Source: Thiohalorhabdus sp. Cl-TMA
Lineage (GTDB): Bacteria > Pseudomonadota > Gammaproteobacteria > Thiohalorhabdales > Thiohalorhabdaceae
Reading direction: 5' to 3'
Assembly: GCF_041821045.1 (NCBI RefSeq)
Contig: NZ_JBGUAW010000002.1
Span: 372,001-436,000, forward strand
DNA length: 64,000 nucleotides
Shown here: positions 14,036 through 64,000 of the stretch, one piece after another
Layout of the letters: every line of letters begins with the position of its first letter
Position numbering within the stretch: position 1 is the first letter of the stretch
Program-made: the position numbers and the translations under genes
The notes under the pieces: model-generated
Seen by the model: the letters and a program-made list of their open reading frames with translations, nothing else
What the model was told of the DNA's origin: nothing
Databases searched by the model: none

Positions 14036-14336
14036 AGATACGGCATGCGGGAGCGGTAGCCGTTGGCCAAATTTCCGGCATGGGGGAAGCGTCGCTGTTA
14101 TTTGACTGTGCGGTATTAGGGTTTTTGTTTTGTGTTCTTTTTTCTTTGGAAAATAAAATGACAGGAAGGGTTTATGTGTATAGTGCTTATCATGTAAAGA
14201 TAATACAACATGTATGATTGTTTTACACTATTATTTGGCTGTTTAATTTTTAGAATGCTTGGTTGTTTTATTTTGTTCTGTAATAGTGTTTCTGAAATGT
14301 CCTACTCTGAAAATAAAATGCGGCAAGGGAGAAGCA
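14036..14336. other. AT-rich intergenic patch
   Basis: Between about 14090 and 14325 the base composition drops sharply, with runs such as gtttttgttttgtg and ttcttttttctttgg in an otherwise very GC-rich neighbourhood. No gene is supported; short frames through it encode low-complexity hydrophobic peptides without ribosome sites. Near-palindromic words (catgtaaag...caacatgta, about 14190-14216) and TATAAT-like hexamers could form a promoter for the gene at 14337. It may be the remnant of transferred DNA or a silencer-binding region. Confidence 0.5.
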
Positions 14337-14675
14337 ATGGAGCGATCCCGGGAATTGCCCCAGATTCCGGATATTCTGGTACCAAAGCTGGAGGAATTGG
14401 GTGAGGGACGAGACGGCTGGCTGGAAGGGAGCCGCGGTGCGCACAGGGAGGCTTCGCAGGCCCTCGGGCCGCCGGTGCTGATGGGGGAGATGGAGCTGAG
14501 CGAGACGGAGGCCAGCGAGCTGAATCTGCTGTTTCACCGATACAAGGAGTGTCCCGTCTGCAAGGGCTACGGCCAGATCCGTCCGGCCATGCTCCTGTCG
14601 CCGCGGACCCTGCGATGGAATGCCGCCGACCGGGCGTATGTGGAGTTCAATATCCTGGGCGTGCTCGACAACTAG
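14337..14675 (+). CDS. Hypothetical protein with a CxxCxGxG motif
   Basis: The ATG has a GGGAGAAG site just upstream. The 112-residue product is soluble and acidic in its first half, and carries CPVCKGYGQI (Cys72, Cys75), which is half of a DnaJ-type zinc-finger repeat; a single copy cannot form the full DnaJ zinc site, so it may dimerise or bind another ligand. I know no family for it. It is preceded by the AT-rich patch and is convergent with the homocysteine methyltransferase gene. Confidence 0.6.
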   Translation: MERSRELPQIPDILVPKLEELGEGRDGWLEGSRGAHREASQALGPPVLMGEMELSETEASELNLLFHRYKECPVCKGYGQIRPAMLLSPRTLRWNAADRAYVEFNILGVLDN

Positions 14676-16876: not shown

Positions 16877-17914
16877 ATGGCCGCGTCCGAAATGACGGGT
16901 GAATACCGTCCGGCCTGGTGGCTGCCCGGGGGCCATTTGCAGACCCTGTGGCCGGCCCTGCTGCGCCGGCCGCCGCGGGTGGCCGTGGCGCGCGAGCGCC
17001 TGGAGCTGGAGGACGGCGATTTCCTGGATCTGGACTGGTTGGCGGAGGCTCCCGCCGGTGGTCCGGTGGTGATCCTCGTTCACGGGCTGGAAGGCTCCCT
17101 GGAATCCCACTATCTGCCCGGCCTCATGCGCACGCTGGCCGACTGCGGCATGCGCCCGGTGCTCATGTACCACCGCGGCTGTAGCGGCGAGCCCAACCGC
17201 ACCGACCGCCGCTACACCGGCGGGGACACCGGCGACCTGGCTTGGGTGGCGGAGATCCTGCGCACCCGCGAGCCCGACATGCCCCTGACCGCGGTGGGCT
17301 TCTCCCTGGGCGGCAATCTCCTGCTCAAATGGCTCGGGGAGACGGGGGCCGACAACCCCCTGGCCGCCGCGGCGGCGGTCTCGCCGCCCTTCCGGCTGGA
17401 CCGGGCGGCGGACCGGCTGGAGCATGGCCTGTCGCGGCTCTACCAGGAGCACCTCTTGCGGGCCCTCCGGGCGTCCGTGACGGCCAAGTACGCCCATCGA
17501 CCGCAGGCCTGTCCGGTGCCCCTGGACCGGGTGCGCTCCGCGTCCAGCTTCCGCGCCTTCGATGACGCCTTCACCGCGCCGGTGCACGGTTACGCCGGGG
17601 TGGACGACTACTATGCCCGCGGCAGCTGCCGCCCCTACCTCCGGGGCATCGCCGTTCCCACCCTCGTCCTCCACGCCCTGGACGATCCCTTCACCACGCC
17701 CGATGCCGTTCCCGCCCCCGGGGAGCTATCCGGGCACGTGCAACTGGAGCTCCACCGACACGGCGGCCACGTGGGCTTCGTGATCGGGAACCTCCCCGGG
17801 AGGCCGCGCTACTGGATCGAGGAGCGCGTGCCCGCCTTCCTTTGCAATACGGTTACCACCCCCGAAACCCCCGCCCGGGGAGTCGTCAGCCCCGACCGCA
17901 CCCTGTCTTCATAA
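16877..17914 (+). CDS. yheT: YheT-type alpha/beta hydrolase
   Basis: The 345-residue protein begins with WWLPGGHLQTLWPALLRR, the hallmark of the YheT/ABHD1-3 hydrolases, then has the oxyanion strand VVILVHGLEGS, YHRGCSGEPNR, and the nucleophile elbow AVGFSLGGN with Ser143. Asp in LHALDDPF and His in RHGGHVGF complete the triad. Members act on lipids or esters; the exact substrate is unknown. A GGGAG-containing site precedes the ATG. Its stop codon overlaps the proposed Pho-like box in front of the TonB cluster. Confidence 0.88.
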   Translation: MAASEMTGEYRPAWWLPGGHLQTLWPALLRRPPRVAVARERLELEDGDFLDLDWLAEAPAGGPVVILVHGLEGSLESHYLPGLMRTLADCGMRPVLMYHRGCSGEPNRTDRRYTGGDTGDLAWVAEILRTREPDMPLTAVGFSLGGNLLLKWLGETGADNPLAAAAAVSPPFRLDRAADRLEHGLSRLYQEHLLRALRASVTAKYAHRPQACPVPLDRVRSASSFRAFDDAFTAPVHGYAGVDDYYARGSCRPYLRGIAVPTLVLHALDDPFTTPDAVPAPGELSGHVQLELHRHGGHVGFVIGNLPGRPRYWIEERVPAFLCNTVTTPETPARGVVSPDRTLSS

Positions 17915-17923
17915 AACTGTAAC
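17906..17923 (+). promoter_or_regulatory. Possible PhoB box upstream of the TonB cluster
   Basis: TCTTCAT, a four-base AAAA spacer and CTGTAAC match 14 of the 18 positions of the enterobacterial Pho box. It overlaps the stop of yheT and lies about 100 bases before the DUF3450 gene. The first half-site is poor, and the hexamer 10 bases downstream (GAAGGT) keeps only two -10 positions, so this is weaker than the other Pho boxes in the window. Confidence 0.45.
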
Positions 17924-18025: not shown

Positions 18026-18808
18026 ATGGCGATCCGCAGTTTCCCGGTCCGGCTCCTGGGGGGGCAGCTGCTGTGCCTCCTCCTCATGCAGCCGGCCTCG
18101 GCCGCCGGTGAATCCCTGGACCGGCTGGCCGAGAAGCTCGTCAACCTCCGCGGCGAGGTGGAGGAGCTGAACAGCCGGCTGGACAGCCTTCGCGACCAGC
18201 ACAAGAACGAAATGGCCTCCCTGAGCCGGCGCAAGTCGGACCTCCAGAGCCGGATCCAGCAGCGGCAGGTCCAGGTGGACGAGCTGCGGACGAACCTGCG
18301 CGAGATCCGGGAGGAGGCGCAGAAGGCCGGCGTGGAGGCGGAGGCCCTCGAGCCCAAGGTGGCCGACGCCATCGTGACCCTGAAGACCCGGGTGCGCCGG
18401 GGACTGCCCTTCAAGGTGGCGGAGCGGGTCGGCGAGCTGGAGGACATCCGCAAGCAGATGGCCACCGGTGTCCTGACTCCCCACAAGGCCGCAAAGCGCC
18501 TCTGGACCTTCTACGAGGATGAGATCCGCCTCGCCGAGGAGAACGGCATCTACCAGCAGACGGTCACCGTGAACGGCGAGGAGAAGCTCGCCGACGTGGC
18601 CCGGGTGGGCATGGTGATGCTGTTCTTCCGTACCCCGGCCAGCCAATACGGACGGGCGGTGCGCTCGGATGGCGGCTGGACCTATCGCGTTTACCGACGG
18701 GATGCCGCGCGCGAGCAGGTGAAGAACCTGTTCGCTTCCTTCCGCAAGCAGGTCCGGACCGGCTATTTCACCATCCCCAATGCGCTGACCGGCACGGAGG
18801 ACCAATAG
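18026..18808 (+). CDS. DUF3450 periplasmic coiled-coil protein of a TonB2-type cluster
   Basis: The 260-residue product has a signal peptide (ending near QPASA), a long coiled coil (about 28-110) and a C-terminal domain ending in YFTIPNALTG, as expected for DUF3450. In Vibrio-type TonB2 systems, proteins of this family are encoded next to TtpC, ExbB2, ExbD2 and TonB2. It is the first gene of a run of eight co-directional genes; the next ATG follows its stop directly. The role is probably structural, in the periplasm, linking the motor to the receptor. Confidence 0.85.
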   Translation: MAIRSFPVRLLGGQLLCLLLMQPASAAGESLDRLAEKLVNLRGEVEELNSRLDSLRDQHKNEMASLSRRKSDLQSRIQQRQVQVDELRTNLREIREEAQKAGVEAEALEPKVADAIVTLKTRVRRGLPFKVAERVGELEDIRKQMATGVLTPHKAAKRLWTFYEDEIRLAEENGIYQQTVTVNGEEKLADVARVGMVMLFFRTPASQYGRAVRSDGGWTYRVYRRDAAREQVKNLFASFRKQVRTGYFTIPNALTGTEDQ

Positions 18809-20233
18809 ATGCGCGCAGCAGGAAAGTGGTTGGGCTTCGCTCTCGCCGCGGCACTGCTCGTTGCTGTGCCGAGCATCCCGCCGGCCCAGGCGCAGACGTC
18901 GGGCGGTGGGCCGGAAGGTGCCGGCAAGGGCGGTGGTGCCCCGGATCCGGATCCCGCCATGGGCCGGGAAGCGCTGGAAAAGGCGTACAAGCGGGAGTTC
19001 GCCTTCCTGGAAGCCCAGAAGCGCTCCCTTCAGGAGCGCCTCGCGCAATTCCAGGACCGCGCGGCGGGCGAAAAGCAGGCGCTGGAGCAAGAGGTCCAGC
19101 GGCTCAAGGACGAGGCGGTGCGCCTCAAGACCCGCATGGAAACGCTGCGGGAGCAGGTGAAGACCGCCGAGGAGCAGCTCCAGTCCAACAAGAACAGCCG
19201 GCAGATCCTGGAGGCCACGTTCACCCAGGCGGGCGTGACCCTCAAGGATTTCGGCTTTCCCGTGGGCAAGGGCAGCGAATTCCGCCAGCTCGATGACGAG
19301 CGGAGGAAGGTGGAGCGGCTGTTCTCCATGGGCAATGCGGTGCTGGATCGGACCAGCGGTATCCGGCGCGAGTCCGGCAGCTTCTTCCTGGCCGACGGCA
19401 CCAAGGTGGACGGCACCCTTCTCAAGGTGGGCCGGGTGGCGTCCTACGGCCTTAGCGACGAGGCCTCCGGCGCCCTGGCGCCCGCCGGCGGCGGTGCCCT
19501 GAAGCTCTGGAAGAAGCCCGCCGCCGGCGTCGCCGAAGGGCTCGCCAACGGCGATGCGCCCGAGCAGCTGAAGATCTTCCTGTACGAATCCCTCGACCAG
19601 GAAGTGGCCACGCCGGATTCGGACACGGTGCTGAGCACCATCCGCAAGGGCGGAGCCATCGGCTGGATCATAGTCGCCATGGGCGCCTTCGCCGGGCTGC
19701 TGGCCCTGCTGCGCGCCGGCTTCCTGCAGTGGGCCAGCGCTTCCACCGGCCGCATCATCGACCGCGTGGGCGCCCTGGTGAGCCGGGGCGAGGTGGAGGA
19801 GGCCCAGGCGCTCTGCGAGCGCAAGCGCGGCGCCGCCTGGAAGGTGGTGGGCGCCGCCGTGCGCAACCTCAACCGCGACCGCGAGCACCTGGAAGACATC
19901 ATCTCCGAGTCCATCCTGCGCGAGAGCACACGCCTGGACCGCTTCGGCCCCCTGATCCTGGTGATCGCCGCGGTGGCGCCGCTGCTCGGCCTGCTCGGCA
20001 CGGTCACCGGCATGATCTCCACCTTCGAGGTCATCACCGAGCACGGCACCGGCGATCCCAAGCTGCTCTCCGGCGGCATCTCCGTGGCCCTGGTCACCAC
20101 CGAGCTGGGGCTCATCGTGGCGGTGCCCACCCTGCTCGCCGGGAACCTCCTGTCCGGCTGGGCGGAGCGCATCAAGAACGACATGGAGAAGACCGCCCTG
20201 CGCATCACCAACCTGTACGCGGGCCGTGCGTGA
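18809..20233 (+). CDS. ttpC: TtpC-like MotA/TolQ/ExbB proton channel protein with periplasmic N-terminal domain
   Basis: The 474-residue protein has a signal peptide (cleavage after PPAQA), a coiled coil at about 50-130, a periplasmic domain and then a MotA/TolQ/ExbB domain (about 260-470) with LGLLGTVTGMISTFEVI and the GISVALVTTELGLIVAVP helix. That arrangement defines TtpC, the extra component of TonB2-type motors. It likely couples proton motive force to the TonB protein. It starts immediately after the DUF3450 stop and ends in a TGATG overlap with the next exbB, showing translational coupling. Confidence 0.88.
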   Translation: MRAAGKWLGFALAAALLVAVPSIPPAQAQTSGGGPEGAGKGGGAPDPDPAMGREALEKAYKREFAFLEAQKRSLQERLAQFQDRAAGEKQALEQEVQRLKDEAVRLKTRMETLREQVKTAEEQLQSNKNSRQILEATFTQAGVTLKDFGFPVGKGSEFRQLDDERRKVERLFSMGNAVLDRTSGIRRESGSFFLADGTKVDGTLLKVGRVASYGLSDEASGALAPAGGGALKLWKKPAAGVAEGLANGDAPEQLKIFLYESLDQEVATPDSDTVLSTIRKGGAIGWIIVAMGAFAGLLALLRAGFLQWASASTGRIIDRVGALVSRGEVEEAQALCERKRGAAWKVVGAAVRNLNRDREHLEDIISESILRESTRLDRFGPLILVIAAVAPLLGLLGTVTGMISTFEVITEHGTGDPKLLSGGISVALVTTELGLIVAVPTLLAGNLLSGWAERIKNDMEKTALRITNLYAGRA

Positions 20234-20958
20234 TGGGGTACGGGGCGCTCGCCGACCTGGTCCAGCTCCTCCTGGAGCAGGTGGGCGTGACCGAGCAAGG
20301 GGCGGAGCGGATCGCCGGTGATTTCGCCGGCTATTTCGCCGCCGGCGGCTTCGTCATGCCGCCGCTGGTGCTGGCGGCGGTGCTCCTGTGGTTCGCCATC
20401 GGCTACCGGGTGGCCGCCCTGCGCATGGGCACCACCCGCGATGTGCAGGACCTCCTGGAGCGTTACGCCGGCCACCCGCCGGCGCGCACCCGGGGCATCG
20501 TCGACGATGCGGCGGTGCGCGGCCTGGCCCTGGCCCGGGAGGGCCACGCCCACCTGCGGCGCTGGCTGGACGACGAGTTCATGGCCTACGAGGCGGAGCT
20601 GAAGAAGTTCTCCCGGCTCACCGTAACCCTCGTGGAGGTGGCGCCGATCATGGGCCTGCTCGGCACCGTGGTGGGCATGATCGAGACCTTCGATTCCCTC
20701 CGGGACATGGCGTTGTTCACCCAGTCCGGCGGTATCGCCGGGGGCATCTCCCAGGCCCTGTTCACCACCCAGATGGGGCTGGTGGTCGCCATCCCCGGGC
20801 TCATCATGCACGGCCTGCTGCGCAAGAAGCAGCAGGCCATCCGTATGGAGCTGGCCCGCATCAAGGACCTGCTCTGCACCGAGCCGGCGGGCTTCTTCCT
20901 GCCGCGGGCGGAGACGGCCCCGGATCAGACCGCACCACAAAGGCAGGCTGACGGATGA
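20233..20958 (+). CDS. exbB: ExbB-type proton channel subunit
   Basis: The 241-residue inner-membrane protein has a first helix at about 36-56, then the ExbB/TolQ core VEVAPIMGLLGTVVGMIETFD and GGISQALFTTQMGLVVAIPGLI. It forms the pentameric proton channel with ExbD and energises TonB. Its ATG overlaps the stop of ttpC and its own stop overlaps the exbD ATG, so the genes are one coupled unit. Compared with E. coli ExbB it has the usual length and lacks any extra domain. Confidence 0.92.
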   Translation: MGYGALADLVQLLLEQVGVTEQGAERIAGDFAGYFAAGGFVMPPLVLAAVLLWFAIGYRVAALRMGTTRDVQDLLERYAGHPPARTRGIVDDAAVRGLALAREGHAHLRRWLDDEFMAYEAELKKFSRLTVTLVEVAPIMGLLGTVVGMIETFDSLRDMALFTQSGGIAGGISQALFTTQMGLVVAIPGLIMHGLLRKKQQAIRMELARIKDLLCTEPAGFFLPRAETAPDQTAPQRQADG

Positions 20959-21365
20959 AATACCGCTACCGGAACGCGGGCGAAGAGAGCGACAAGATCG
21001 ATATCCACCCCCTGATCGACGTGGTGTTCATCCTGCTGATCTTCTTCATGGTGTCCACCACCTTCGTCAAGGACATGAACCTGGATATCGACCGGCCCAA
21101 GGCCTCCAGTGCCAGCCAGGCCGACAGCAATACCATCCGGGTCTACATCGACGGCAACGGCAATACCTTCCTGGACGGGCAGCCGGTGCGCACCTGGGTC
21201 ATCCAGAGCCGGCTGCGGGACATGCTGCAGGTGAGCTCCTCCAAGAATGTCCTGGTGGTCACCGACGACAAGGTGCCCGCCGGCAAGCTGGTGCAGGTGG
21301 TGGACCAGGCCAAGCTGGCCGGGGCCGAGGACGTGGGTGTCTCCACCCAGGCAAGCGGCAGCTAG
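20955..21365 (+). CDS. exbD: ExbD-type transport subunit
   Basis: The 136-residue protein has a single N-terminal membrane helix, DIHPLIDVVFILLIFFMVST, whose Asp in LIDVVF is the conserved proton-binding residue, followed by a periplasmic domain ending in the strand-turn AGAEDVGVST. It completes the ExbB-ExbD motor. It overlaps exbB by four bases (ATGA), and tonB starts ten bases after its stop. Confidence 0.93.
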   Translation: MKYRYRNAGEESDKIDIHPLIDVVFILLIFFMVSTTFVKDMNLDIDRPKASSASQADSNTIRVYIDGNGNTFLDGQPVRTWVIQSRLRDMLQVSSSKNVLVVTDDKVPAGKLVQVVDQAKLAGAEDVGVSTQASGS

Positions 21366-21375
21366 GACCGCCCCA

Positions 21376-22023
21376 ATGGCCCACACCCATCCCCTGCGCA
21401 ACTATGCCTCCGCGACGGGCTTCATGGTCCTGGGCACGGCCCTGGTATTGGGCACGGTGCTCCTGATCAACGCCTACAACAAGGGTCCGGATAAGAAGGA
21501 AGTGGAGGACACCGCCCGCTTCAACGTGGCTCCGCCGGAGCCTCCGAAGCAGGAGCAGGTGGAGCCCGAGCCCGAACCGGAGCAGGAGCCCCAGGCCAAT
21601 AATCCGCCGCCCTCGCCGCTGCAGGGCCTGGGTACCTCGGTGGGCGCTGGCAGCTTCGAGATCGCCACCCCCGATTTCGGCGGTAACGCCGGCGGCCTCG
21701 ACGACTCCCTGCTCGGCGACACCCGCGACGTGGTCATGACCGACGACTCCGTGGACGTGCCGCCCAAGGCGGTGGAGCGCGCCGCCATGCAGTATCCCGC
21801 CGCGGCCCGCCAGAAGGGCATTACCGGGTTCGTGACGGTGAACCTGCTCGTCAACGCCGAGGGCCGGGTGGAGAAGGTGAAAGTGCTCGATTCCAAGCCG
21901 GGCGGCGTCTTCGAGGAGGCCGCGGTGGAGGCGGTGCGGGCATGGCGCTTCGAGCCGGCCAAGTACGAGGGCGAGGCCGTGAAGGTCTGGGCCAAGCAGA
22001 AGATCCGCTTCAACCTCAGCTGA
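21376..22023 (+). CDS. tonB: TonB energy transducer
   Basis: The 215-residue protein has an N-terminal inner-membrane helix (about 13-34), a proline/glutamate-rich periplasmic linker (VEPEPEPEQEPQ, about 60-80) and a C-terminal TonB domain (about 125-215) with YPAAARQKGITGFVTVNLLV and VEAVRAWRFEPA. The linker is short, as in TonB2 proteins. It would transfer energy to the TonB-dependent receptor encoded downstream. Position within a tight operon supports a dedicated rather than a global TonB. Confidence 0.93.
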   Translation: MAHTHPLRNYASATGFMVLGTALVLGTVLLINAYNKGPDKKEVEDTARFNVAPPEPPKQEQVEPEPEPEQEPQANNPPPSPLQGLGTSVGAGSFEIATPDFGGNAGGLDDSLLGDTRDVVMTDDSVDVPPKAVERAAMQYPAAARQKGITGFVTVNLLVNAEGRVEKVKVLDSKPGGVFEEAAVEAVRAWRFEPAKYEGEAVKVWAKQKIRFNLS

Positions 22024-22044: not shown

Positions 22045-23223
22045 ATGCCGATCCCCGAATCATACGCCGCCCGCCTCCTGGCCCTCGGCCTGCTCGTCCT
22101 GCCCGTGGGTGGGATGGCGGCGGACGAGGAAGCGGAGAAGCAGAAGGGCGAGGAAGTGGACTACGTCAGCCTGGGCGCCCGCCTGCTCAAGGACGGGCAC
22201 CTGGGCCGCGCGGAGTCCGCCCTGAAAAAGGCCGATCCGGCCGCCGAGGAGGTGGACGCCGCCCGGCTGTACACCCTCTGGGGGCTGGTGGACCTGAAGC
22301 GCGGCGAGAACGCCTCCGCCCGGGATCACCTGCGCCGGGCCATCGACGCGGGCCAGACCGGGAAGACGGTTTACCTCTACCTGGCCCAGGCCCATTACCG
22401 CCTGCAGGAGTACCGGCCCACCATCGACGCCATCGAGCGCGCCGGACTGGGCGAGCAGGACAACCCCAATCTCTACGCCATCCTGGCCCGATCCCACTGG
22501 GAGCTGGAGAACGGGGCCGAGGCCTGGGCCGCCCTGGATGCGGGCCAGAAGCGCTATCCGGAGCACACCGCCTTCCTGCGCCAGAAGATCTTCTACCTGA
22601 TCGAGCTGGAGCTCTACCAGAAGGCGGCCCGGCTCGGGGAGGAATACCTGGCCGGGGCGCGGGCCACGGTGGCGGACTATCTGGCCATCGGCCGGGCCAT
22701 GCGCCGCAGCGGCCAGCTCGAGCAGGCGCGTGACTTCCTGGAGGCCGCCCGGCTGCAGTACCCCGGTGATCCGCGCCTCGGCATGGAGCTGGCCCAGGTC
22801 TACCTGAAGCTGGACCAGACCCTCACCGCCGCCCAGATCTACGAACAGGCCGCCTTCCGCGACCCCGAGCTGCTGACGGAAGCCGCGGAGCTGTACCGGC
22901 GCAGCGGCAAGCTCTATCGCGCCCTGAACCTCAATGCCCAGGTGGCCGATTCCGGGAAGAAGCTGAAGCAGCGCCTGGCTATTCTCCTGGAGACCGAGCG
23001 CTATGCCATGGCCGCCGCCATGCGGGACGACCTCCTGCGGGCGGGGCTGCTGGAGAACGAGGACATCCGCTACGCGCTCGCCTATGCCCGGTTCAAGAAC
23101 GGCGAGTTCGAGAAGGCCGAGGCCCAGCTCTCCCGGCTGACCCGCTCGGACCTGTTCCGCAAGGCCACCAAGCTGCGCAAGGCCATGGCCGATTGCCGGG
23201 ACGCCGCCTGGAAGTGCTACTAG
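22045..23223 (+). CDS. Periplasmic TPR-repeat protein of the TonB cluster
   Basis: The 392-residue product has a signal peptide (cleavage near GGMAA) and tetratricopeptide-like helical repeats from about 40 to the end, for example LYTLWGLVDLKRGENASARD and DYLAIGRAMRRSGQLEQARD. TPR proteins regularly accompany TtpC/ExbB2/TonB2 operons and are thought to scaffold the complex. It starts 21 bases after tonB. It ends in a Cys-containing tail (CRDAAWKCY). Confidence 0.85.
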   Translation: MPIPESYAARLLALGLLVLPVGGMAADEEAEKQKGEEVDYVSLGARLLKDGHLGRAESALKKADPAAEEVDAARLYTLWGLVDLKRGENASARDHLRRAIDAGQTGKTVYLYLAQAHYRLQEYRPTIDAIERAGLGEQDNPNLYAILARSHWELENGAEAWAALDAGQKRYPEHTAFLRQKIFYLIELELYQKAARLGEEYLAGARATVADYLAIGRAMRRSGQLEQARDFLEAARLQYPGDPRLGMELAQVYLKLDQTLTAAQIYEQAAFRDPELLTEAAELYRRSGKLYRALNLNAQVADSGKKLKQRLAILLETERYAMAAAMRDDLLRAGLLENEDIRYALAYARFKNGEFEKAEAQLSRLTRSDLFRKATKLRKAMADCRDAAWKCY

Positions 23224-23273: not shown

Positions 23274-26200
23274 ATGGACCGCACCAAGACCAGTTTCATG
23301 AAAAAGCTCGGGCTGCTCCTCCTCCTATCCGTCTTCGCGGTACCGCAAGTCCGGGCGCAGGAGGAGCCGGCGCCGGCGGATCTGTCCATGTTCGTCTTCG
23401 ACGACGAGCTCCCCCTGAGCGACGTCACCATCAAGGTGGACGGCCGCCCCCAGGCGGTGACCAACGACAACGGCGCGGCCTGGCTGCTGATCGGCTCCGG
23501 GAAGCGGAAGCTGACGCTGGAGAAGCCGGGGCGGGCCAGCACCGAAATCCGCCTGAAGGTGGGCCGGGGAGAGAACCTCCGCGTCATCACCACGCTAAAG
23601 CCGGAAGGCGGCAAGCCGGAGGTGGACATCCAGTCCTCCGGGCCGAGGGAATCCTTCCTGGCGGTGGGTGGCGAACAGGGCAAGGACGGCGGTCCCACGG
23701 GCACGCTCCAGGGGCGGGTGGTTTCCGCCGAGGACGGCGGCCCGGTATCCGGGGCCCGGGTGTTCATCAGCGGCACGCCCGTGGACATGCAGACCGACAA
23801 GGAGGGCCGCTTCCGCACCAAGCTGCCGGAGGGCACCTACTCCCTGTCCGTGATCCACGGCGACTACAGCACCCAGACGAAGGACGGCATCAAGGTCGGG
23901 GCCGACAAGACCGCCAAGGCTAGCGTCGAGCTCACCCCGGCCGGCCTGGAGCTGCAGGACTTCGTGGTGACGGTGCCGTATATCGAGGGTTCGGTGGCCT
24001 CCACGCTTTCCCAGCAGGAGGAAGCCTCGGGGGTTACCGAGGTCTTGGGGGCGGACCAGATGTCCCGTGCGGGCGATTCCGACGCCGCCGACGCCTTGGC
24101 CCGGGTTACGGGTCTGACCATCGAAGACGGCAAATACGTCGTTATTCGCGGCCAGCCGGCCCGCTACACCGCCACTGTGCTGAATGGCTCCCCCCTGCCG
24201 AGTCCCGACCCCATGCGACGTATCGTTCCTCTCGATCTCTTTCCCACAGGGGTATTGAGCGCCATTGAGGTCCAGAAGAGCTATACGTCGGACCAGCCCG
24301 GAACCTTCGGGGCGGGACTGATCGACCTCAGGACCCGGGGCCTGCCCGAGTCGGGATTCGGCGAGATAGAAATCGGTGCCGGCCTCAACACACAAAGCTT
24401 CGGTGAAAAAGGGCTTACGTACGAAGGAGGCGGGAGCGACTGGCGGGGCGTGGATGACGGCAGTCGCTCGGGTCCTTCCGGGGATACCACAAGCCCCGTA
24501 CCCGGCGATTTCGGCAACGACGAGCACGTCGTGCAGCGGGAAAGCCTCGGTCCCGACCGCTCACTGGCGGTGGCGGGGGGGGGGCGGATTGACACCCCGG
24601 TGGGCAAATATGGGGCGGTTGCCTCCTTTAGCTACGACCAGAAGTGGCGCCATCGCAAGGAATACCGGACTATCTACAGTCTCGGAGGCGGCGAGCTTCA
24701 AAAGAATGAGGAGTACACCCTCGAGCGGACCGACAGGGAAGTGGGTGTTGGGGGCATGCTTACCCTGGGCGGCGAATGGGGCGAGGACCAGAGCATCACC
24801 AGCAATACCTTCCTGATGCGCAAGACCCGGGATCGTACCCAGATAGCCGATGGGGAGCTTACCGCCGAGTACCAGAGGAGCCAGGAATACCGGTTGGCGT
24901 TCAACCGGCGTGCGCTGTTGCTGCAGCAGCTCATCGGGCAGCACAAGCTGCCATTGGGGCTGGGTCTCGACTGGCGTTTCCTGACCGGCGAGGCCGAGCG
25001 CGAGCTACCGGATCGCCGAACCTATACCTACAACTTCCTGGGGGACGAGTCCTACCTGCGCTCCGATATCGGCATGGAGCGCAAGTTCAACACGGTGAAG
25101 GACGATGTCGGAGCCTACAGTGCCGACCTGACCGTACCTCTGGGTGAGGCCGGCTGGCTCAGCGAGGCCGAGGCCAAGCTCGGCATTTCCAATTCGAGCA
25201 AGGACCGGGAAAGCGATACCGCAACCTTCAGCTTTCTGCCCGACGACGAAGCCGGCGTCGACCTGACGCGGGATCCGAATGCGCTGTTCGATCCTGAAGG
25301 ATACGGCGATGCCTTCGAGATCCGGAACGATACCAGCCCCGGTGACAGCTACACCGGCTCGGTCGATGTCAGCAGCCGGTACGCCATGATCAACCTGGAG
25401 CTGATGAAGGCCCTGAAGCTGAATCTCGGGGTTCGCCAGGAACAGGTCGACATGGAGGTGGCCCCCGAAGGCGACAATCCGTCCTCCGGGTTCAAGGAGA
25501 CGCGCACCCTGCCCGGTGCCACCGCCACCTGGAAGATCCGCGAGGACATGAATCTGAGGTTCGCCTTCTCGGAAACCTATTCCCTGCCCATGCTCACGGA
25601 GATCGCCCCTATCGTTTATTCCGATCCCGATACCGGCGAGCCCTTCCAGGGCAATCCGGATCTGGAGCCGGTGGATATCCGCGCCTTCGATATCCGCTGG
25701 GAGTGGTACCCCAGCAATGCCGAGATGCTGACGCTGGCTTGGTTCCGGAAGGCTTACGAGAACCCGATCGAGCGCAGCTTCGCCGACCTGGCGGGCGGGG
25801 ATCGCACCCTCAATCAGATGCGCAACTTCGATCAGGCCGAGGTGAACGGTTTCGAGCTGGGGGCCCGGATCGATCTGGCCGAGCGGCTGTGGGGCCCGGA
25901 AGGACTCTATGCCCAGGCCAACGCCGCCTTCGTGGATTCCAACGTCAGCGTCGAGGACGCCGGTCTGGCCACCAACGACAGCCGTCCCCTGCAAGGCCAG
26001 GCCCCCTGGATCTACAACCTCCAGGCGGGGTATGCCGGCGATATCTGGGATCTGACGCTCTCCTACAACATGGTGGGCGAGCGGCTGTACCAGGCGGGTA
26101 TCCAGGGCTTGCCGGATGTGTATCTGCAGCCGGTGGCGTATCTGGATCTGTCCTCCCGCTTACAGTTTGGCGAGCATTGGTTCCTGCAGTTCAAGGCCGG

Positions 26201-26303
26201 CAACCTGCTCGACCCGACCATCGAGTACACGCAGGGGGGGCGTGGGTACCGGACGTACCAAAAGGGCAGGGACTTCAGTCTCTCCCTGAAGTGGCGCTAC
26301 TGA
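23274..26303 (+). CDS. TonB-dependent outer-membrane receptor with N-terminal carboxypeptidase-regulatory-like domains
   Basis: The 1009-residue protein has a signal peptide (about 9-29), two Ig/CarboxypepD_reg-like beta domains (about 35-110 and 143-222), a possible TonB box (LQDFVVTVP, about 227-235), a plug (about 240-360, with PDPMRRIVPLDLFPTGVL) and a large 22-strand barrel ending in SLSLKWRY. It would import a ligand across the outer membrane using the adjacent TonB motor. The double regulatory-type N-terminus is more common in Bacteroidetes and in receptors paired with surface lipoproteins. An ATG at 23274 was used; MKKLG at 23298 is an equally plausible start. The ligand is unknown; Pho context suggests a phosphorus compound. 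Confidence 0.9.
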   Translation: MDRTKTSFMKKLGLLLLLSVFAVPQVRAQEEPAPADLSMFVFDDELPLSDVTIKVDGRPQAVTNDNGAAWLLIGSGKRKLTLEKPGRASTEIRLKVGRGENLRVITTLKPEGGKPEVDIQSSGPRESFLAVGGEQGKDGGPTGTLQGRVVSAEDGGPVSGARVFISGTPVDMQTDKEGRFRTKLPEGTYSLSVIHGDYSTQTKDGIKVGADKTAKASVELTPAGLELQDFVVTVPYIEGSVASTLSQQEEASGVTEVLGADQMSRAGDSDAADALARVTGLTIEDGKYVVIRGQPARYTATVLNGSPLPSPDPMRRIVPLDLFPTGVLSAIEVQKSYTSDQPGTFGAGLIDLRTRGLPESGFGEIEIGAGLNTQSFGEKGLTYEGGGSDWRGVDDGSRSGPSGDTTSPVPGDFGNDEHVVQRESLGPDRSLAVAGGGRIDTPVGKYGAVASFSYDQKWRHRKEYRTIYSLGGGELQKNEEYTLERTDREVGVGGMLTLGGEWGEDQSITSNTFLMRKTRDRTQIADGELTAEYQRSQEYRLAFNRRALLLQQLIGQHKLPLGLGLDWRFLTGEAERELPDRRTYTYNFLGDESYLRSDIGMERKFNTVKDDVGAYSADLTVPLGEAGWLSEAEAKLGISNSSKDRESDTATFSFLPDDEAGVDLTRDPNALFDPEGYGDAFEIRNDTSPGDSYTGSVDVSSRYAMINLELMKALKLNLGVRQEQVDMEVAPEGDNPSSGFKETRTLPGATATWKIREDMNLRFAFSETYSLPMLTEIAPIVYSDPDTGEPFQGNPDLEPVDIRAFDIRWEWYPSNAEMLTLAWFRKAYENPIERSFADLAGGDRTLNQMRNFDQAEVNGFELGARIDLAERLWGPEGLYAQANAAFVDSNVSVEDAGLATNDSRPLQGQAPWIYNLQAGYAGDIWDLTLSYNMVGERLYQAGIQGLPDVYLQPVAYLDLSSRLQFGEHWFLQFKAGNLLDPTIEYTQGGRGYRTYQKGRDFSLSLKWRY

Positions 26304-26309
26304 GCTCCG

Positions 26310-26365
26310 CTGTCATTTTTCTGCAATTCTGGCGACACATGTCTGTAACCCGCCAAGCCTAGGAT
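26310..26365 (+). promoter_or_regulatory. PhoB-dependent promoter with four tandem 11-bp repeats
   Basis: CTGTCAT (26310), CTGCAAT (26321), GCGACAC (26332) and CTGTAAC (26343) are spaced exactly 11 bases apart by four-base spacers, as in E. coli Pho boxes (CTGTNAY repeats). Ten bases after the last repeat lies TAGGAT (26360-26365), a TANNNT -10 element at the expected position for a PhoB-activated promoter that lacks a -35. Transcription would start about 40 bases before the lipoprotein ATG at 26415. Confidence 0.85.
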
Positions 26366-26414
26366 GTGGATCTGTGTTCCAGCCGATTTTTGCAACCACA
26401 AAGGAGCCTAGGCC

Positions 26415-28025
26415 ATGGAACGGAACAAGGCACTGGCGGCCACGATCAGTCTACTGGCCGCTACCGGGCTGACCGCCTGCGGCGGTGGCGGCGGTGGCGG
26501 TGGCGGTAACGGCGATGACAGCGCCACCTCCTTCCAAAAGCAGTTCTCGGAGAGCGATTCCTATGACGTGATCGAGAACCCCTCCAGCTTTAATCTCAAG
26601 TCTACCACCCTGGCCGTGACGAATCCGGATGGCAGCAACATCGACGGCAGCCTGGCTGCCGGTATGGACGACACCGATTATTACGGCGCCGTGGATCCGG
26701 ATGCCATCAACGACCCGGATAATGATGCCGATGCCACCAACAACGCCTGGTGGCAGGGCTGGACCTACCGCAACGGCAGCGTGGACGGCAATTTTCCCGG
26801 AAGCTCGAATTTCCATCCGCTTGAGGATGAAATCAAGAATTCCATGAGCCCGGATACGAATGATGGGTCCTGCCCTAAAGGTACCCACAAAGGTACTACC
26901 TCGGCGTTTGGGGATAGCTACGACGTGTGCGCCCTGGCGGATGGAGATATCACCGGTAGCACCGCCACCCTCAACAACGAGCACATTTGGCTCCTCACCG
27001 AGACCGTTAACATCGGCGACGGCGGGGATCAGAACAACTCGGCCGGCACCGGCGACGTTGTGCTGACCATCGAACCGGGCACCATGGTCATGGGCGCCTC
27101 CAGCGGCACTGTTGACGACGTGGCCCTGGTCATCACCCGCGGCTCCCAGATCAAGGTGCAGGGAACCAAGGAGCAGCCCGTAATCATGGGTGCGGTGGAC
27201 TTCGACGGCACCACTATTACGGGCGACGTCACCGACTTGACCGACCGCGGTGAATGGGGCGGCCTGGTGGTGGACGGCCTGGCCACGGTGAACTCCGCCG
27301 CCACCCCCGGAAACGCGCCCGGCAACGGCGGCAGCGTCGCCAGTGAGGCAGTGCCCGATGGCAAGGACCGCTACTTTGGCGGCGGCACCGACAACGACAA
27401 CAGCGGCGAGATCCGGTACCTGATCATCGCCGAGTCGGGCTATGCCTTTCGCGAGGACCAGGAGGTCCAGGGGCTCACCCTCGAGGGCGTGGGCAGCGGC
27501 ACCACCGCCACTGACGGCGGTCCGTTCGTCGACTACCTGCAGGTGCTCGGGTCCGAGGACGACGGCGTCGAGTGGTTCGGCGGCACTGCCGGGATGAACC
27601 ACGTGGTCATCAACGGCCAGGACGATGACGGCCTGGACCAGGACCTCGGTTGGCAGGGCAAGGTTCAGTACGCCCTGATCCTCATGGGCGCCGATAACGG
27701 CAACCGCGCTATGGAAACCGACGGTAACGGTGACGACTTCGACGCAAAGCCGTACACCGCGCCGACCATTGCCAACCTCACCGTGATCGGCAATTCCGGC
27801 GGGGACAGCAGCGACACCCTGGCCCATCTGGCCCGCGAGGGCTATCGCGGCAACATCCACCGCACGGTCTACACCGACGATCCCAACAACGGGACCAAGT
27901 TCAAGACCGCCTGCATCGACGTGGATGAGATGAGCGGCAGCAGCTGGCTGGACGATTCGCCGCTCACCTACGAGGACGTGGTGTTCAACTGCGACAACGG
28001 CGCCCTCGCCGACGCCGACGACTAA
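26415..28025 (+). CDS. Surface or periplasmic beta-helix lipoprotein paired with the TonB-dependent receptor
   Basis: The 536-residue protein has a lipoprotein signal with the lipobox LTAC (Cys22), followed by nine glycines and an acidic, low-complexity stretch. The rest has repeats typical of right-handed beta-helices (VVLTIEPGTMVMG, DVALVITRGSQIKVQGTKE, DRGEWGGLVVDGLATVN), a family often encoded beside TonB-dependent receptors. It is strongly acidic, which suits divalent cation binding. An AAAGGAG site precedes the ATG, and its own four-repeat Pho promoter lies in the 111-base gap after the receptor gene. A strong terminator follows. A ligand-capture role for the receptor is inferred. Confidence 0.85.
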   Translation: MERNKALAATISLLAATGLTACGGGGGGGGGNGDDSATSFQKQFSESDSYDVIENPSSFNLKSTTLAVTNPDGSNIDGSLAAGMDDTDYYGAVDPDAINDPDNDADATNNAWWQGWTYRNGSVDGNFPGSSNFHPLEDEIKNSMSPDTNDGSCPKGTHKGTTSAFGDSYDVCALADGDITGSTATLNNEHIWLLTETVNIGDGGDQNNSAGTGDVVLTIEPGTMVMGASSGTVDDVALVITRGSQIKVQGTKEQPVIMGAVDFDGTTITGDVTDLTDRGEWGGLVVDGLATVNSAATPGNAPGNGGSVASEAVPDGKDRYFGGGTDNDNSGEIRYLIIAESGYAFREDQEVQGLTLEGVGSGTTATDGGPFVDYLQVLGSEDDGVEWFGGTAGMNHVVINGQDDDGLDQDLGWQGKVQYALILMGADNGNRAMETDGNGDDFDAKPYTAPTIANLTVIGNSGGDSSDTLAHLAREGYRGNIHRTVYTDDPNNGTKFKTACIDVDEMSGSSWLDDSPLTYEDVVFNCDNGALADADD

Positions 28026-28081: not shown

Positions 28082-28110
28082 GGCCGGCTCCCTAGGGAGC
28101 CGGCCTTTTT
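28082..28110 (+). terminator. Rho-independent terminator of the TonB cluster
   Basis: An eleven-base perfect stem (GGCCGGCTCCC with GGGAGCCGGCC) around a two-base loop is followed directly by TTTTT. It ends the eight-gene TonB cluster and insulates the FIST gene. Confidence 0.88.
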
Positions 28111-32323: not shown

Positions 32324-33544
32324 CTACACGGCACGCATCCTGAATGGGGTCTCAGGCGCTTGTGCCTCTTCGTTCTCGGTATCCCGGCACCAGCGCGAGT
32401 GGCACGGGATGCGCTCCAGGTCGCAGCGGTGGGCGTAGCGGGCGGCGATGTCCCGCACTTCCTCCATCAGTCCCTCGTCCAGGGTAACGGGGTCCAGGCC
32501 CAGCTCCTGCAGACCGCGATTCTCCATTCGGAGCTCGTTCTCCGCCGCTTCCTTGCGGGGATTATTCAGGAATGCCACATCCGCACCGGTGAGAAAACCT
32601 ACCTTTTGGGATAGTTCCAGGACACGGTGGGTCTCCGTGGCCTGGTTGAAGATGCGCACCCTGTCTCCGGCGTGCGGCGGATTCGTCACCGCCAGCTCGA
32701 TGCAGCGGACCGTGTCCTGGATGTGGATGAAGGCGCGGGTCTGGCCGCCGGTGCCGTGCACGGTGAGGGGATAGCCCACCGCCGCCTGCATGAGGAAGCG
32801 GTTGAGCACCGTGCCGTAGTCGCCGTCGTAGTCGAAGCGGTTGATGAGCCGCTCGTCCATCCGGGTCTGCTCCGTCTGGGTGCCCCACACCACGCCCTGG
32901 TGGAGGTCCGTGATCCGCAGCCCGTCGTTCTTGTTGTAGAACTGGAACAGCAGCTGGTCCTGGGTCTTGGTCATGTGGTAGATGCTGCCGGGATTGGGTG
33001 GATAGAGGATCTCGCGTTCCTCGGCCGTTCCCTCCGGAAGCGGGATGTGCACGGTCAGGTAGCCTTCGGGAAGCGGGGCGGAGGAGGTGGAGTAGCCGTA
33101 GACCCCCATGGTACCGAGATGCACGAGGTGGGCGTCTATGTCTCCCTCCACCAGGGCGCAGAGCACGTTGTGGGTGGCGTTAAGGTTGTTATCCACGGTG
33201 TAGCGCTTCTGCCGGGATCCCTTCATGGAGTAGGGGGCGGCCCGCTGCTCGGCGAAGTGGATTACCGCGTCCGGGCGCTGTTCCCGCAGCAGGTCGAGCA
33301 GTTCGGCGTAGTCCCGGGCGATGTCCAGGTTATGGAACCCGATCTTCCGGCCGGTCAGCTCCCGCCAGGCCTTGAGCCGCGTACCCATGGGCCGGATGGG
33401 CGTCAGCGAAGCGGTTTCCAGCTCGTCGTCGATGGCCCGCCGCGAGAGATTGTCCACGATCACGACCTCGTGGCCGCGCGCGGAGAGGTGGAGCGCGGTG
33501 GGCCAGCCGCAGAATCCGTCGCCGCCTAGTACGATGATCCGCAT
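32324..33544 (-). CDS. sqdB: UDP-sulfoquinovose synthase
   Basis: The 406-residue extended SDR enzyme makes UDP-sulfoquinovose from UDP-glucose and sulfite for sulfolipid (SQDG). It has GGDGFCGWPTALHLS (NAD binding), VIVDNLSRR, FAEQRAAPYSM, the catalytic YHMTK (Tyr and Lys of YxxxK) and HQGVVWGTQT, all typical of SqdB/SQD1. The sulfite-donor handling depends on the whole fold. It is encoded after the glycosyltransferase gene with a 27-base gap, which is the known pairing with the sulfoquinovosyl transfer step. It lies under the reverse Pho promoter at 34635-34690. Confidence 0.93.
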   Translation of the reverse strand: MRIIVLGGDGFCGWPTALHLSARGHEVVIVDNLSRRAIDDELETASLTPIRPMGTRLKAWRELTGRKIGFHNLDIARDYAELLDLLREQRPDAVIHFAEQRAAPYSMKGSRQKRYTVDNNLNATHNVLCALVEGDIDAHLVHLGTMGVYGYSTSSAPLPEGYLTVHIPLPEGTAEEREILYPPNPGSIYHMTKTQDQLLFQFYNKNDGLRITDLHQGVVWGTQTEQTRMDERLINRFDYDGDYGTVLNRFLMQAAVGYPLTVHGTGGQTRAFIHIQDTVRCIELAVTNPPHAGDRVRIFNQATETHRVLELSQKVGFLTGADVAFLNNPRKEAAENELRMENRGLQELGLDPVTLDEGLMEEVRDIAARYAHRCDLERIPCHSRWCRDTENEEAQAPETPFRMRAV

Positions 33545-33571
33545 GCTACCTCCAGAGTGGTTGCGGGGCGT

Positions 33572-34597
33572 TCAGGAGCCCACCGCCAGCGGGGCGGGGC
33601 GGGCCGGGGTGAGATTGTCGAGGAATTCTTCGGTGGCCGACCGCCAGGAGCGGGCCAGGGCCGCCTCCCGGCAGGCCCGGGGGTCGAGCTTCAGGGCTTC
33701 CGTGGCGGCCGTGGCCAGATCCTCGTCCAGGCAGCCCGTGACGCCGTGCGCGACCACGTTCCGGGGCCCCTGCACGGGGTAGGCGGCCACCGGGACGCCG
33801 CACGCCATGGCCTCGTACATGACCAGCCCCAGCGTGTCGGTGCGGCTGGGGAAGACGAAGACGTCCGCCGCCGCCAGGTGGCGGGCCAGCTCCTCGCCCT
33901 GCTTGAAACCGGTGAAGACCGCGTCCGGGTATTCCTCCTCCAGCTGCCGACGCGCCGGCCCGTCTCCCACCACGTACTTGGTGCCGGGCAGGTTCAGCCG
34001 CAGGAAGGCCTCCAGGTTCTTCTCCACGGCCACCCGCCCCACATAGAGGAAGATGGGGCGCTCCGCGGTGAGGAAGTCCTTCTCCCGGGGCCGGAACAGC
34101 TCCGTATCCACGCCGCGGGACCAGAACACCAGGTTGCGGATGCCGTGCGTCTCCAGCTCGGCCCGCATGGTCTCGTTGGTGACCATGGTTCGCCGCCCGG
34201 CGCGGTGGAACCAGCGAAGGAAGGCGTATCCCCACTCCAGGGGGACGAAGGGCAGACGGAGCTGGATGTATTCGGGGAACCGGGTATGGAAGGAGGTAGT
34301 GAACGCCAGGCCCCGACGCCGGCAGTGGGAGCGGGCCGCCAGACCCAGCGGTCCCTCGGTGACGATATGGACCGCGTCGGGCTGGAATTCCCGGAAGGCC
34401 TCCCGGATCAGGCGTCGGGGCCGAAGCGCCACGCGGATGTCCGGGTAGGTGGGCAGGCCCACCGTGCGGGTGCCCTGCGGGGTGACCATGCGAACCTCGT
34501 GGCCCAGGGCTTCGAGCTCCCGGCGGGTGTACCCCAGGGAGGTGACTACCCCGTTGATCTGGGGGGTCCAGGCGTCCGTTACAATGGCGATGCGCAT
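33572..34597 (-). CDS. GT4 glycosyltransferase, likely sulfoquinovosyl- or glycosyl-diacylglycerol synthase
   Basis: The 341-residue protein starts with IAIVTDAWTPQINGVVTSL, typical of lipid-acting GT4 enzymes such as SqdX, and has FHTRFPEYI, WSRGVDTELFRPR, FLYVGRVAVEKNLEAFL and the donor-binding DVFVFPSRTDTLGLVMYEAM (EX7E-like region). Adjacent sqdB suggests it moves sulfoquinovose onto diacylglycerol, but a glucosyl or glucuronosyl transfer is possible. The ATG at 34597 is the family N-terminus. It is the first gene of the operon below the reverse-strand Pho box array. Confidence 0.88.
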   Translation of the reverse strand: MRIAIVTDAWTPQINGVVTSLGYTRRELEALGHEVRMVTPQGTRTVGLPTYPDIRVALRPRRLIREAFREFQPDAVHIVTEGPLGLAARSHCRRRGLAFTTSFHTRFPEYIQLRLPFVPLEWGYAFLRWFHRAGRRTMVTNETMRAELETHGIRNLVFWSRGVDTELFRPREKDFLTAERPIFLYVGRVAVEKNLEAFLRLNLPGTKYVVGDGPARRQLEEEYPDAVFTGFKQGEELARHLAAADVFVFPSRTDTLGLVMYEAMACGVPVAAYPVQGPRNVVAHGVTGCLDEDLATAATEALKLDPRACREAALARSWRSATEEFLDNLTPARPAPLAVGS

Positions 34598-34634
34598 AGG
34601 CACGGTCGGCTTCCCTCGAATTTGCAATCCGTAG

Positions 34635-34690
34635 ACTGTGCCTTGCGCGGTTTGCAGTTTTGTAACGCGGATATTGCGGATTTGTTGCAG
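34635..34690 (-). promoter_or_regulatory. PhoB box array for the glycosyltransferase-sqdB operon
   Basis: Read on the minus strand, CTGCAAC (34690-34684), CCGCAAT (34679-34673), GCGTTAC (34668-34662) and CTGCAAA (34657-34651) recur every 11 bases with four-base spacers, the Pho-box geometry. Ten bases later is CACAGT (34640-34635), a weak -10 in the expected place. The predicted transcript starts about 30 bases before the ATG at 34597. Confidence 0.72.
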
Positions 34691-34728
34691 CGGGCTACAG
34701 CGAAGGGAGATTTTTGCGGGGGGTTGCG

Positions 34729-34762
34729 CTGTAATTTTGCTGTCACGGACCGGTCCTATGCT
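34729..34762 (+). promoter_or_regulatory. PhoB-dependent promoter of olsBA
   Basis: CTGTAAT (34729-34735), a TTTG spacer and CTGTCAC (34740-34746) form a near-consensus Pho box. Exactly ten bases further is TATGCT (34757-34762), a good -10. This places the transcription start about 35 bases before the olsB ATG. It is divergent from the array controlling sqdB. Confidence 0.85.
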
Positions 34763-34803
34763 GATTGCGCAATTCAGTGGCAAGGAAGCCAGGAGCAATC
34801 AGC

Positions 34804-35580
34804 ATGGGTGCCCGTCAGGAAACTTCACCGCTCCAAGCGGAGCCGGTTCTCCAGCGTAACCGTCTGGAGGTGGTGGTGGCGGAAAGCCGGGCGGAAGTCG
34901 AGCGCTGCCAGCGCCTGCGCTACGAGGTGTTCACCGCCGACCTGGGGGCCCGCATCGCCACCAGCCGCCCCGGTCTCGACCATGACTCCTATGATGCGTA
35001 TTGCCGCCACCTGTACGTCCGGGACAATCGTACGGGGGCCATGGTGGGAACCACCCGGCTGCTCACGAGCGCGGGCGCGGTGGCTGCTGGCGGGTTCTAC
35101 TCGGCGGGCGAGTTCGATCTGAGGCGGGTCCTCTCCCTGCCCGGGCGGTTCCTGGAGGTGGGTCGCACCTGCATCCATCCCGATTACCGGCGGGGCGCGG
35201 CCATCACCACCCTTTGGAACGGCATCGCCGGCATGGCCATCGCGGAGGGGAGCGATTACCTGATCGGCTGTCCCAGCATCCCCCTGGGAGGGGGCCGAGC
35301 CTATGCCCTCGCCGTGATGGATCACCTGCGGGCCCATTACCACGTCCCCGAATCGCTGCGGGTGGTCCCCCGCCATCCCCTGCCGCGGGATCCGGAGCTG
35401 CCGGCCGAGACGGAGGCGGTCCTGCCGCCCCTCATGAAGGCCTACATGCGCCTGGGGGCCCGGGTCTGCGGGGAGCCATTCTGGGACGAAGACTTCAACG
35501 TGGCGGATGTGTTCATCCTCCTGGAGACCGGCGCCATCACCCGTCGCTACGCCCGCCACTTCTTCCGGGAGTCCCGGTGA
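34804..35580 (+). CDS. olsB: L-ornithine N-alpha-acyltransferase OlsB
   Basis: The 258-residue GNAT-fold enzyme adds a 3-hydroxyacyl chain from ACP to ornithine to make lyso-ornithine lipid. It matches OlsB blocks: QRLRYEVFTADLGA, LDHDSYDAYCRHLYV, GTTRLLTS, FYSAGEFDLRR, LEVGRTCIHPDYRRG, TLWNGIAGMA, MKAYMRLGARV and DEDFNVADVFILLE. An AGGAGC site precedes the ATG. Its stop overlaps the GTG start of olsA, so the two steps are coupled. It is controlled by the near-consensus Pho box just upstream. Confidence 0.93.
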   Translation: MGARQETSPLQAEPVLQRNRLEVVVAESRAEVERCQRLRYEVFTADLGARIATSRPGLDHDSYDAYCRHLYVRDNRTGAMVGTTRLLTSAGAVAAGGFYSAGEFDLRRVLSLPGRFLEVGRTCIHPDYRRGAAITTLWNGIAGMAIAEGSDYLIGCPSIPLGGGRAYALAVMDHLRAHYHVPESLRVVPRHPLPRDPELPAETEAVLPPLMKAYMRLGARVCGEPFWDEDFNVADVFILLETGAITRRYARHFFRESR

Positions 35581-63224: not shown

Positions 63225-64000
63225 GATCTTGTTCCTTGTAGATTGGTTGCTTGACTACCAGTGTTCGAAGTGAACTACTTCCCGTGCCGGTGCTGAGTCT
63301 CCTTTCATCTAGCTGTTAGGCGGATCAGCGGAAAAGCCCGAAGGTCCGAAAGAGCCATGACGTTTCCTCTCAGCCCATTTAGGAAAATATCCAGAACCAA
63401 GCCGCATTCGATGGACAGGATTTTTTGGCAAATGCCAAATGCGGTGACCACCAATATGGCGGGGATGGCTCCGTTACCCGTCGCTTCAGGGATTTGCGGG
63501 TATACCGCGGAGAGGCCCATCTTTCCATAGGATGATTACGCTGTAGCGTTCCTCTAGATAGGCAAACTTTGTTCCAAAGATGGCTTCCTGAAAAATAATA
63601 AAAAAATCAAAGATTTGGCGTTTTGCGGGCTTATGGTGTGTCAAAGCGTCAGGTCAAATCGACATTTGGCGTGGAGAGAAGGAATGGTTATGGAAGGTGT
63701 AAATTCGAATTTTTCGAAAATACCGCTTTTCTGCTAGGGGGTGTTCAATGGTTCCGAGGAAAGGCTCCCTTTGGCGCCGGTACACGAATGGCGGTCACAA
63801 AGATTGAAACGGGAGGATTGGCGTTAGCCCTCTATTCCAAAGCGAAAAGGAAATATCGGATGTTGCCTGGGGGGCGGCGGCAGCCGGAGGAAGCGCTACA
63901 CGAGGCTATTTGGGAATCGGCCGCCCGGGCCCGAACTAAAGGGGGACGGAAAGCCCCCCTTTTGCGCAATTGAGGGCCTTCGCCCCGCCTTCCAACCGGA
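63225..64000. other. Region without a confident gene at the right edge
   Basis: Frames at 63305-63520 (minus) and 63623-63973 (plus) are open but have weak starts and no recognised family; the minus one is hydrophobic and may be a fragment of a membrane protein. The composition stays less GC-rich. A terminator-like hairpin lies near the end. Confidence 0.4.
63938..63963 (+). terminator. Terminator-like hairpin near the right edge
   Basis: AAAGGGGG pairs with CCCCCTTT around a short loop and is followed by further T. It could end a short transcript of the plus strand. Confidence 0.5.

Follow-up and report, generated by a model that had tools for sequence, protein, structure and literature searches.

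A putative PhoB-dependent promoter between the receptor and ElpS-like lipoprotein genes of a TonB energizer operon in Thiohalorhabdus sp. Cl-TMA

Pho promoters and the closest described systems

The Pho box is made of two 11-bp direct-repeat units, in which CTGTCAT is the most conserved E. coli motif; PhoB binds the box head to tail and contacts σ70 (PMC4415409). Pho sites overlap the -35 region (PMC3348028). In the phoA and pstS promoters of E. coli, 7-bp repeats follow one another at 11-bp steps, no -35 element is present, and the -10 element lies ten bp further on. The site described here shares each of these features, as well as a genome-encoded PhoB. It lies in the window, by which we mean the whole 64-kb stretch of DNA that was analysed. 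However, its array comprises two boxes (four units), the third unit being degenerate, and it is internal to an uptake operon.

The best-described relative found for the lipoprotein encoded downstream of this site is ElpS (CC_0170) of Caulobacter crescentus, which has no established molecular function. ElpS is surface anchored and induced by phosphate starvation, its gene adjoins those of the receptor CC_0171 and of the type II secretion system (T2SS), its over-production leads to higher alkaline phosphatase activity in the supernatant, and its release depends on the T2SS; the neighbouring receptor was reported to be independently regulated (PMC2996285). In a later study, the T2SS and several TonB-dependent receptors were placed in the Caulobacter PhoB regulon (PMC11208175). 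Like ElpS/CC_0171, the pair in the window consists of a phosphate-linked lipoprotein beside a TonB-dependent receptor, but its lipoprotein gene lies 3' of the receptor gene, has TonB energizer rather than T2SS genes as neighbours, and encodes a circularly permuted protein. Gene order and the description of CC_0170, rather than its sequence, suggest that the lipoprotein is a relative of ElpS.

Two other systems resemble the locus in part. The Vibrio TonB2 and TonB3 systems carry TtpB, TtpC and TtpD (PMC6957404), and share with the window operon the set DUF3450, TtpC-like ExbB, ExbB, ExbD, TonB and TPR protein; whereas Vibrio TonB2 serves iron-siderophore uptake, the window operon has a Pho box and the receptor-lipoprotein pair. 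SusC/SusD likewise join a TonB-dependent receptor to a surface lipoprotein encoded beside it (the surface location being a prediction in the window), but the window protein has no match to SusD or any other Pfam family and is predicted to be a right-handed beta-helix.

A phased Pho array in the receptor-lipoprotein gap

The lipoprotein gene closes an operon that is laid out as follows.

17906..17923, + strand: Pho box TCTTCAT-AAAA-CTGTAAC 5' of the energizer/receptor operon (score 19.4), with a weak -10, GAAGGT, at +10
18026..18808, + strand: DUF3450 protein, TtpB-like (PF11932, E 1.9e-31)
18809..20233, + strand: large ExbB/TolQ-family protein, TtpC-like (PF01618)
20233..20958, + strand: second ExbB, kept in relatives by tblastn
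20955..21365, + strand: ExbD (PF02472)
21376..22023, + strand: TonB (PF03544, TIGR01352)
22045..23223, + strand: TPR protein, TtpD-like (TPR matches; 35-52% identity in relatives)
23274..26303, + strand: TonB-dependent receptor with a CarboxypepD_reg N-terminal domain (PF13620, PF07715, PF00593)
26415..28025, + strand: lipoprotein of 536 aa, ElpS-like predicted beta-helix, with lipobox LTAC and Cys22 followed by a Gly run
28082..28105, + strand: strong intrinsic terminator 3' of the lipoprotein gene, a 10-bp stem followed by TTTTT

The genes from DUF3450 to the TPR protein have the same order in the homologous loci L064, L067 and L077; a phylum-wide draw with the TPR protein as query yielded one further genome only. 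The gap of 111 bp between the receptor stop at 26303 and the lipoprotein start at 26415 holds all of the following promoter elements, and the ribosome-binding site.

26310..26316, + strand: Pho unit 1, CTGTCAT, perfect consensus (score 12.3, matched by 0.004% of window 7-mers)
26321..26327, + strand: Pho unit 2, CTGCAAT, read directly (score matched by 0.3% of 7-mers)
26332..26338, + strand: unit 3, GCGACAC, degenerate, in phase, not recognisable as a Pho repeat alone
26343..26349, + strand: Pho unit 4, CTGTAAC, in place of a -35 element (score matched by 0.025% of 7-mers)
26360..26365, + strand: -10 hexamer TAGGAT, read directly, exactly 10 bp beyond unit 4
26400..26406, + strand: ribosome-binding site AAAGGAG, read directly

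Direct reading confirmed the coordinates and phasing of the original prediction, a run of four 7-bp units repeated every 11 bp exactly, with TAGGAT 10 bp further on. The spacers are TTTT between units 1 and 2, TCTG between units 2 and 3, ATGT between units 3 and 4, and CCGCCAAGCC between unit 4 and the hexamer. To judge from its sequence, 26310-26365 has the standard, textbook-style layout of a PhoB-activated promoter, and PhoB would be expected to bind it; no σ70 -35/-10 pair was found in 26200-26450, and the gap has no -35 hexamer. The promoter itself is ordinary in kind. Unit 3, however, is identical to CTGTCAT at 3/7 positions, and a score as high is reached by 7% of random 7-mers. Thus, the "four perfectly phased Pho repeats" of the prediction stand as to phasing, but the count overstates unit 3: there are three good units and one degenerate unit.

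Sites were scored with a matrix built from nine E. coli Pho boxes, and hence independent of the present genome, and chance was gauged from 100 dinucleotide-preserving shuffles of the 64-kb window. Only three two-unit sites in the window score at least 19.3 (26310, 17906 and 34729), against a shuffle mean of 0.06 and a maximum of 1. No other place in the window reaches the four-unit sum of the 26310 site, and 0/100 shuffles equalled it; four units with TAnnnT at +10 were likewise seen in 0/100, and when the test was confined to the 111-bp gap the array had p = 0.001. All three measures, namely the best match of two units, the sum over four units and the spacing, thus exceed chance, in line with the original prediction. 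Across the genome, the loose two-unit pattern is not enriched (28 matches versus 38 in a reversed control), so that the argument is based on the site's architecture, its position and its conservation. A stricter pattern that includes the +10 hexamer gave five genome sites, the olsB-like and pstS promoters among them, versus three in the control; another of the five (L169, G000:C11:109330) precedes a lipoprotein-looking ORF. Folding of the lipoprotein leader gave no signal of RNA structure (z -0.33).

Elsewhere in the window, which is 67% GC, an unusually AT-rich intergenic stretch at 14090-14340 contains weak Pho-like matches, and a Pho-box-like site, CTTTCATCTAGCTGTTAG, lies at 63302-63319, in AT-rich sequence close to the end of the window (score 19.0), with no obvious correctly spaced -10.

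No terminator was found in the gap between the receptor and lipoprotein genes. Given the operon's Pho box at 17906 and the lack of a terminator before the lipoprotein gene, two Pho promoters could drive transcription of the lipoprotein gene and one that of the receptor gene. The original prediction is thus supported in part, for its placing of a Pho-type promoter within the cluster, directly 5' of the lipoprotein gene, and for the extra promoter that this gives the lipoprotein over the receptor.

The genome encodes the proteins that would act at these sites. PhoB scores 311.8 bits against the TIGR02154 cut-off of 296.2, and the adjoining PhoR scores 328.0 bits, just below its cut-off of 334.2; PstSCA are encoded beside them. 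The DNA-binding domain of PhoB aligns to that of E. coli PhoB (1gxp) without gaps, and its recognition helix is nearly identical (RTVDVHVRRLR versus RTVDVHIRRLR in E. coli). The pstS gene of this genome has the box TTGTAAC-AATT-TTGTAAT upstream. Another near-perfect Pho promoter of the window (34729-34762; CTGTAAT-TTTG-CTGTCAC, 10 bp, TATGCT) lies 5' of a gene for a protein resembling ornithine-lipid acyltransferases (OlsB models, E 8.5e-45, below their cut-offs). This gene is divergent from those for a glycosyltransferase and a UDP-sulfoquinovose synthase-like protein, and the set at 32324-35580 probably functions in lipid remodelling under phosphate starvation. Such lipid replacement is typical of phosphate starvation.

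Conservation of the site and its possible meaning

The strongest evidence for the putative promoter is comparative. Homologues of the lipoprotein were collected at 100 loci, from a class-wide draw and named genomes, and a Pho box was called upstream of the lipoprotein start at p <= 0.05 versus shuffles. With the E. coli-type matrix, boxes were found in 33/56 other Gamma- and Alphaproteobacteria, 0/28 Bacteroidota and 4/14 others (Gamma- and Alphaproteobacteria versus Bacteroidota, Fisher 1e-8). In the same Gamma- and Alphaproteobacterial loci, 38/377 other genes (10%) pass as controls, some of which are real Pho genes, such as phoB; the difference from the lipoprotein genes is significant at 1.8e-15. 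TAnnnT lies exactly at +10 in 14 of the 33 boxed relatives, and other offsets have 0-2 each. No significant box was called in the remaining 23/56, including L065 despite its same receptor-lipoprotein order. The genus has two other genomes, and both lack the lipoprotein gene.

Within the receptor-lipoprotein gap itself, a four-unit array with a +10 hexamer is present in L066 (TAGGAT), L067 and L068 (both TATTTT), L077 (TAAATT) and L080 (GACAAT), at p 0.001-0.006 each, and the third unit is weak in L066 and L077 also. As L067 and L068 belong to one genus, and L064, L066 and L077 to one family, the box has been kept in this place in about five independent families. The dual layout of the window recurs in L064, which has a Pho promoter before the operon as well as before the lipoprotein gene; its DUF3450 gene is preceded by Pho boxes with TAGAAT at +10.

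The pairing of lipoprotein and TonB-dependent receptor is constant, the two genes being adjacent in most of the 100 loci, across several phyla. In Alteromonas marina and Aliiglaciecola (L134, 6214-15331; L093, 5634-15433), the pair is immediately preceded by phoB, phoR and a gene for a PstS-like protein, and the DUF3450 gene of L134 has its own Pho promoter (TATCCT at +10). The pair of Aestuariibacter lies beside polyphosphate kinase (ppk), exopolyphosphatase (ppx) and a Pit-like transporter. In Sphingomonas, Kordiimonadales and Hyphobacterium the order is lipoprotein, receptor, gsp (T2SS); the window cluster has no T2SS genes, and the GspD of its genome is encoded on another contig (C10). The recurrence of a Pho switch at the lipoprotein gene in many bacteria ties this widespread, little-studied pair to phosphorus scavenging.

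The locus is thus very probably a phosphate-starvation promoter for an ElpS-like lipoprotein, a second, dedicated Pho promoter for a protein encoded beside the receptor. Two dimers of phosphorylated PhoB would line up head to tail along the phased 11-bp repeats, with unit 3 a weak site occupied through cooperativity, and would cover the missing -35 element and bring σ70 RNA polymerase to TAGGAT. Judged by the position of the hexamer, a short lipoprotein transcript would start near 26372 and end at the terminator at 28105, and transcription of the energizer/receptor operon from the Pho box at 17906 could read through into the lipoprotein gene. The beta-helix lipoprotein, predicted to lie on the cell surface, would cooperate with the TonB-dependent receptor, and the two would most likely capture or process a phosphorus source. 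Counted against this explanation are the degenerate unit 3, the poor -10 at 17906 and the relatives that lack a box.

That the site at 26310 is a chance or vestigial match, and the lipoprotein is transcribed solely by read-through from the operon promoter, would agree with the degenerate unit 3, the gap without a terminator and the unenriched loose pattern. However, the four-unit sum that no shuffle equalled, and the place and +10 spacing kept across families, make it very improbable. It is just as improbable that another OmpR/PhoB-family regulator binds the repeats in place of PhoB. The genome encodes four other response regulators with a Trans_reg_C domain and ordinary length, and regulators related to PhoB can use 7-bp direct repeats with 4-bp spacers, as does M. 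tuberculosis PhoP (PMC4832192), but the units fit the E. coli PhoB consensus, the pstS and olsB-like genes of this genome have the same type of site, and phoB-phoR adjoin the pair in Alteromonadales.

A more substantial alternative, although we consider it somewhat doubtful, is that the promoter is PhoB-dependent and the lipoprotein acts in secretion or signalling rather than as a binding partner in uptake, for example as cargo exported via the receptor or as an activator of an extracellular phosphatase. This concerns the protein alone and is compatible with the promoter half of the preferred explanation. The phosphatase effect and T2SS-dependent release of ElpS (PMC2996285) speak for it, as do the T2SS genes 3' of the pair in Kordiimonadales, Hyphobacterium and Sphingomonas; on the other side, the window and several gammaproteobacterial relatives have TonB energizer neighbours, not T2SS.

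Three features are new: a conserved architecture with two promoters, a TonB energizer dedicated to an ElpS-type cluster, and a circularly permuted lipoprotein. A Pho-controlled pair of receptor and beta-helix lipoprotein with a dedicated energizer is of more interest than the promoter alone. The hypothesis that the pair acts in phosphate scavenging, and the question of what it imports or processes, are now concrete enough to test. As a tentative generalisation, almost but not quite as probable as its opposite, such pairs in Gamma- and Alphaproteobacteria, with their own TonB energizer or T2SS, may be a standard device of the Pho regulon for acquiring phosphorus that has so far gone unrecognised; receptor and lipoprotein would divide the work as in SusCD, a four-unit Pho promoter would belong to the system, and the lipoprotein would tolerate repeated circular permutation.

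The lipoprotein family, its permutation and predicted fold

The lipoprotein has no sequence match in Pfam, NCBIfam or PDB. Its family, found together with the receptor, comprises at least 530 loci, mostly unnamed, to which the conservation of the promoter now gives a regulatory signal. The window protein matches that of L132, a Sphingomonas locus with ElpS-like gene order, at E 9e-39. The domain is circularly permuted. Its conserved blocks, about ten in number, form a cycle that the proteins of the window, L064, L066 and L077/L080 enter at four different points, each permuted homologue holding about one complete cycle, whereas L065, L087 and L096 have the canonical, unpermuted order. Tandem doubles of the domain occur in many Alteromonadales and Kordiimonadales, and a likely route of permutation is that the domain was duplicated in tandem and then lost its ends.

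The structure model of the permuted window protein is weak over its N-terminal 135 residues, and the canonical single-domain relative L087 was therefore modelled instead (mean pLDDT 91). With VIA-align, the L087 model aligns to the pectate lyase Pel9A (Z 22.9, rmsd 3.2 over 283 residues) and to alginate epimerases (Z about 22), which predicts a right-handed parallel beta-helix; Foldseek TM-scores are low, about 0.2-0.3, for the window and L087 models. The fold gives no function or substrate. The conserved acidic clusters xDDGxExF, DDxxD and ExD could form a binding or catalytic site. In L066, similarity to the family extends slightly beyond the stop codon.
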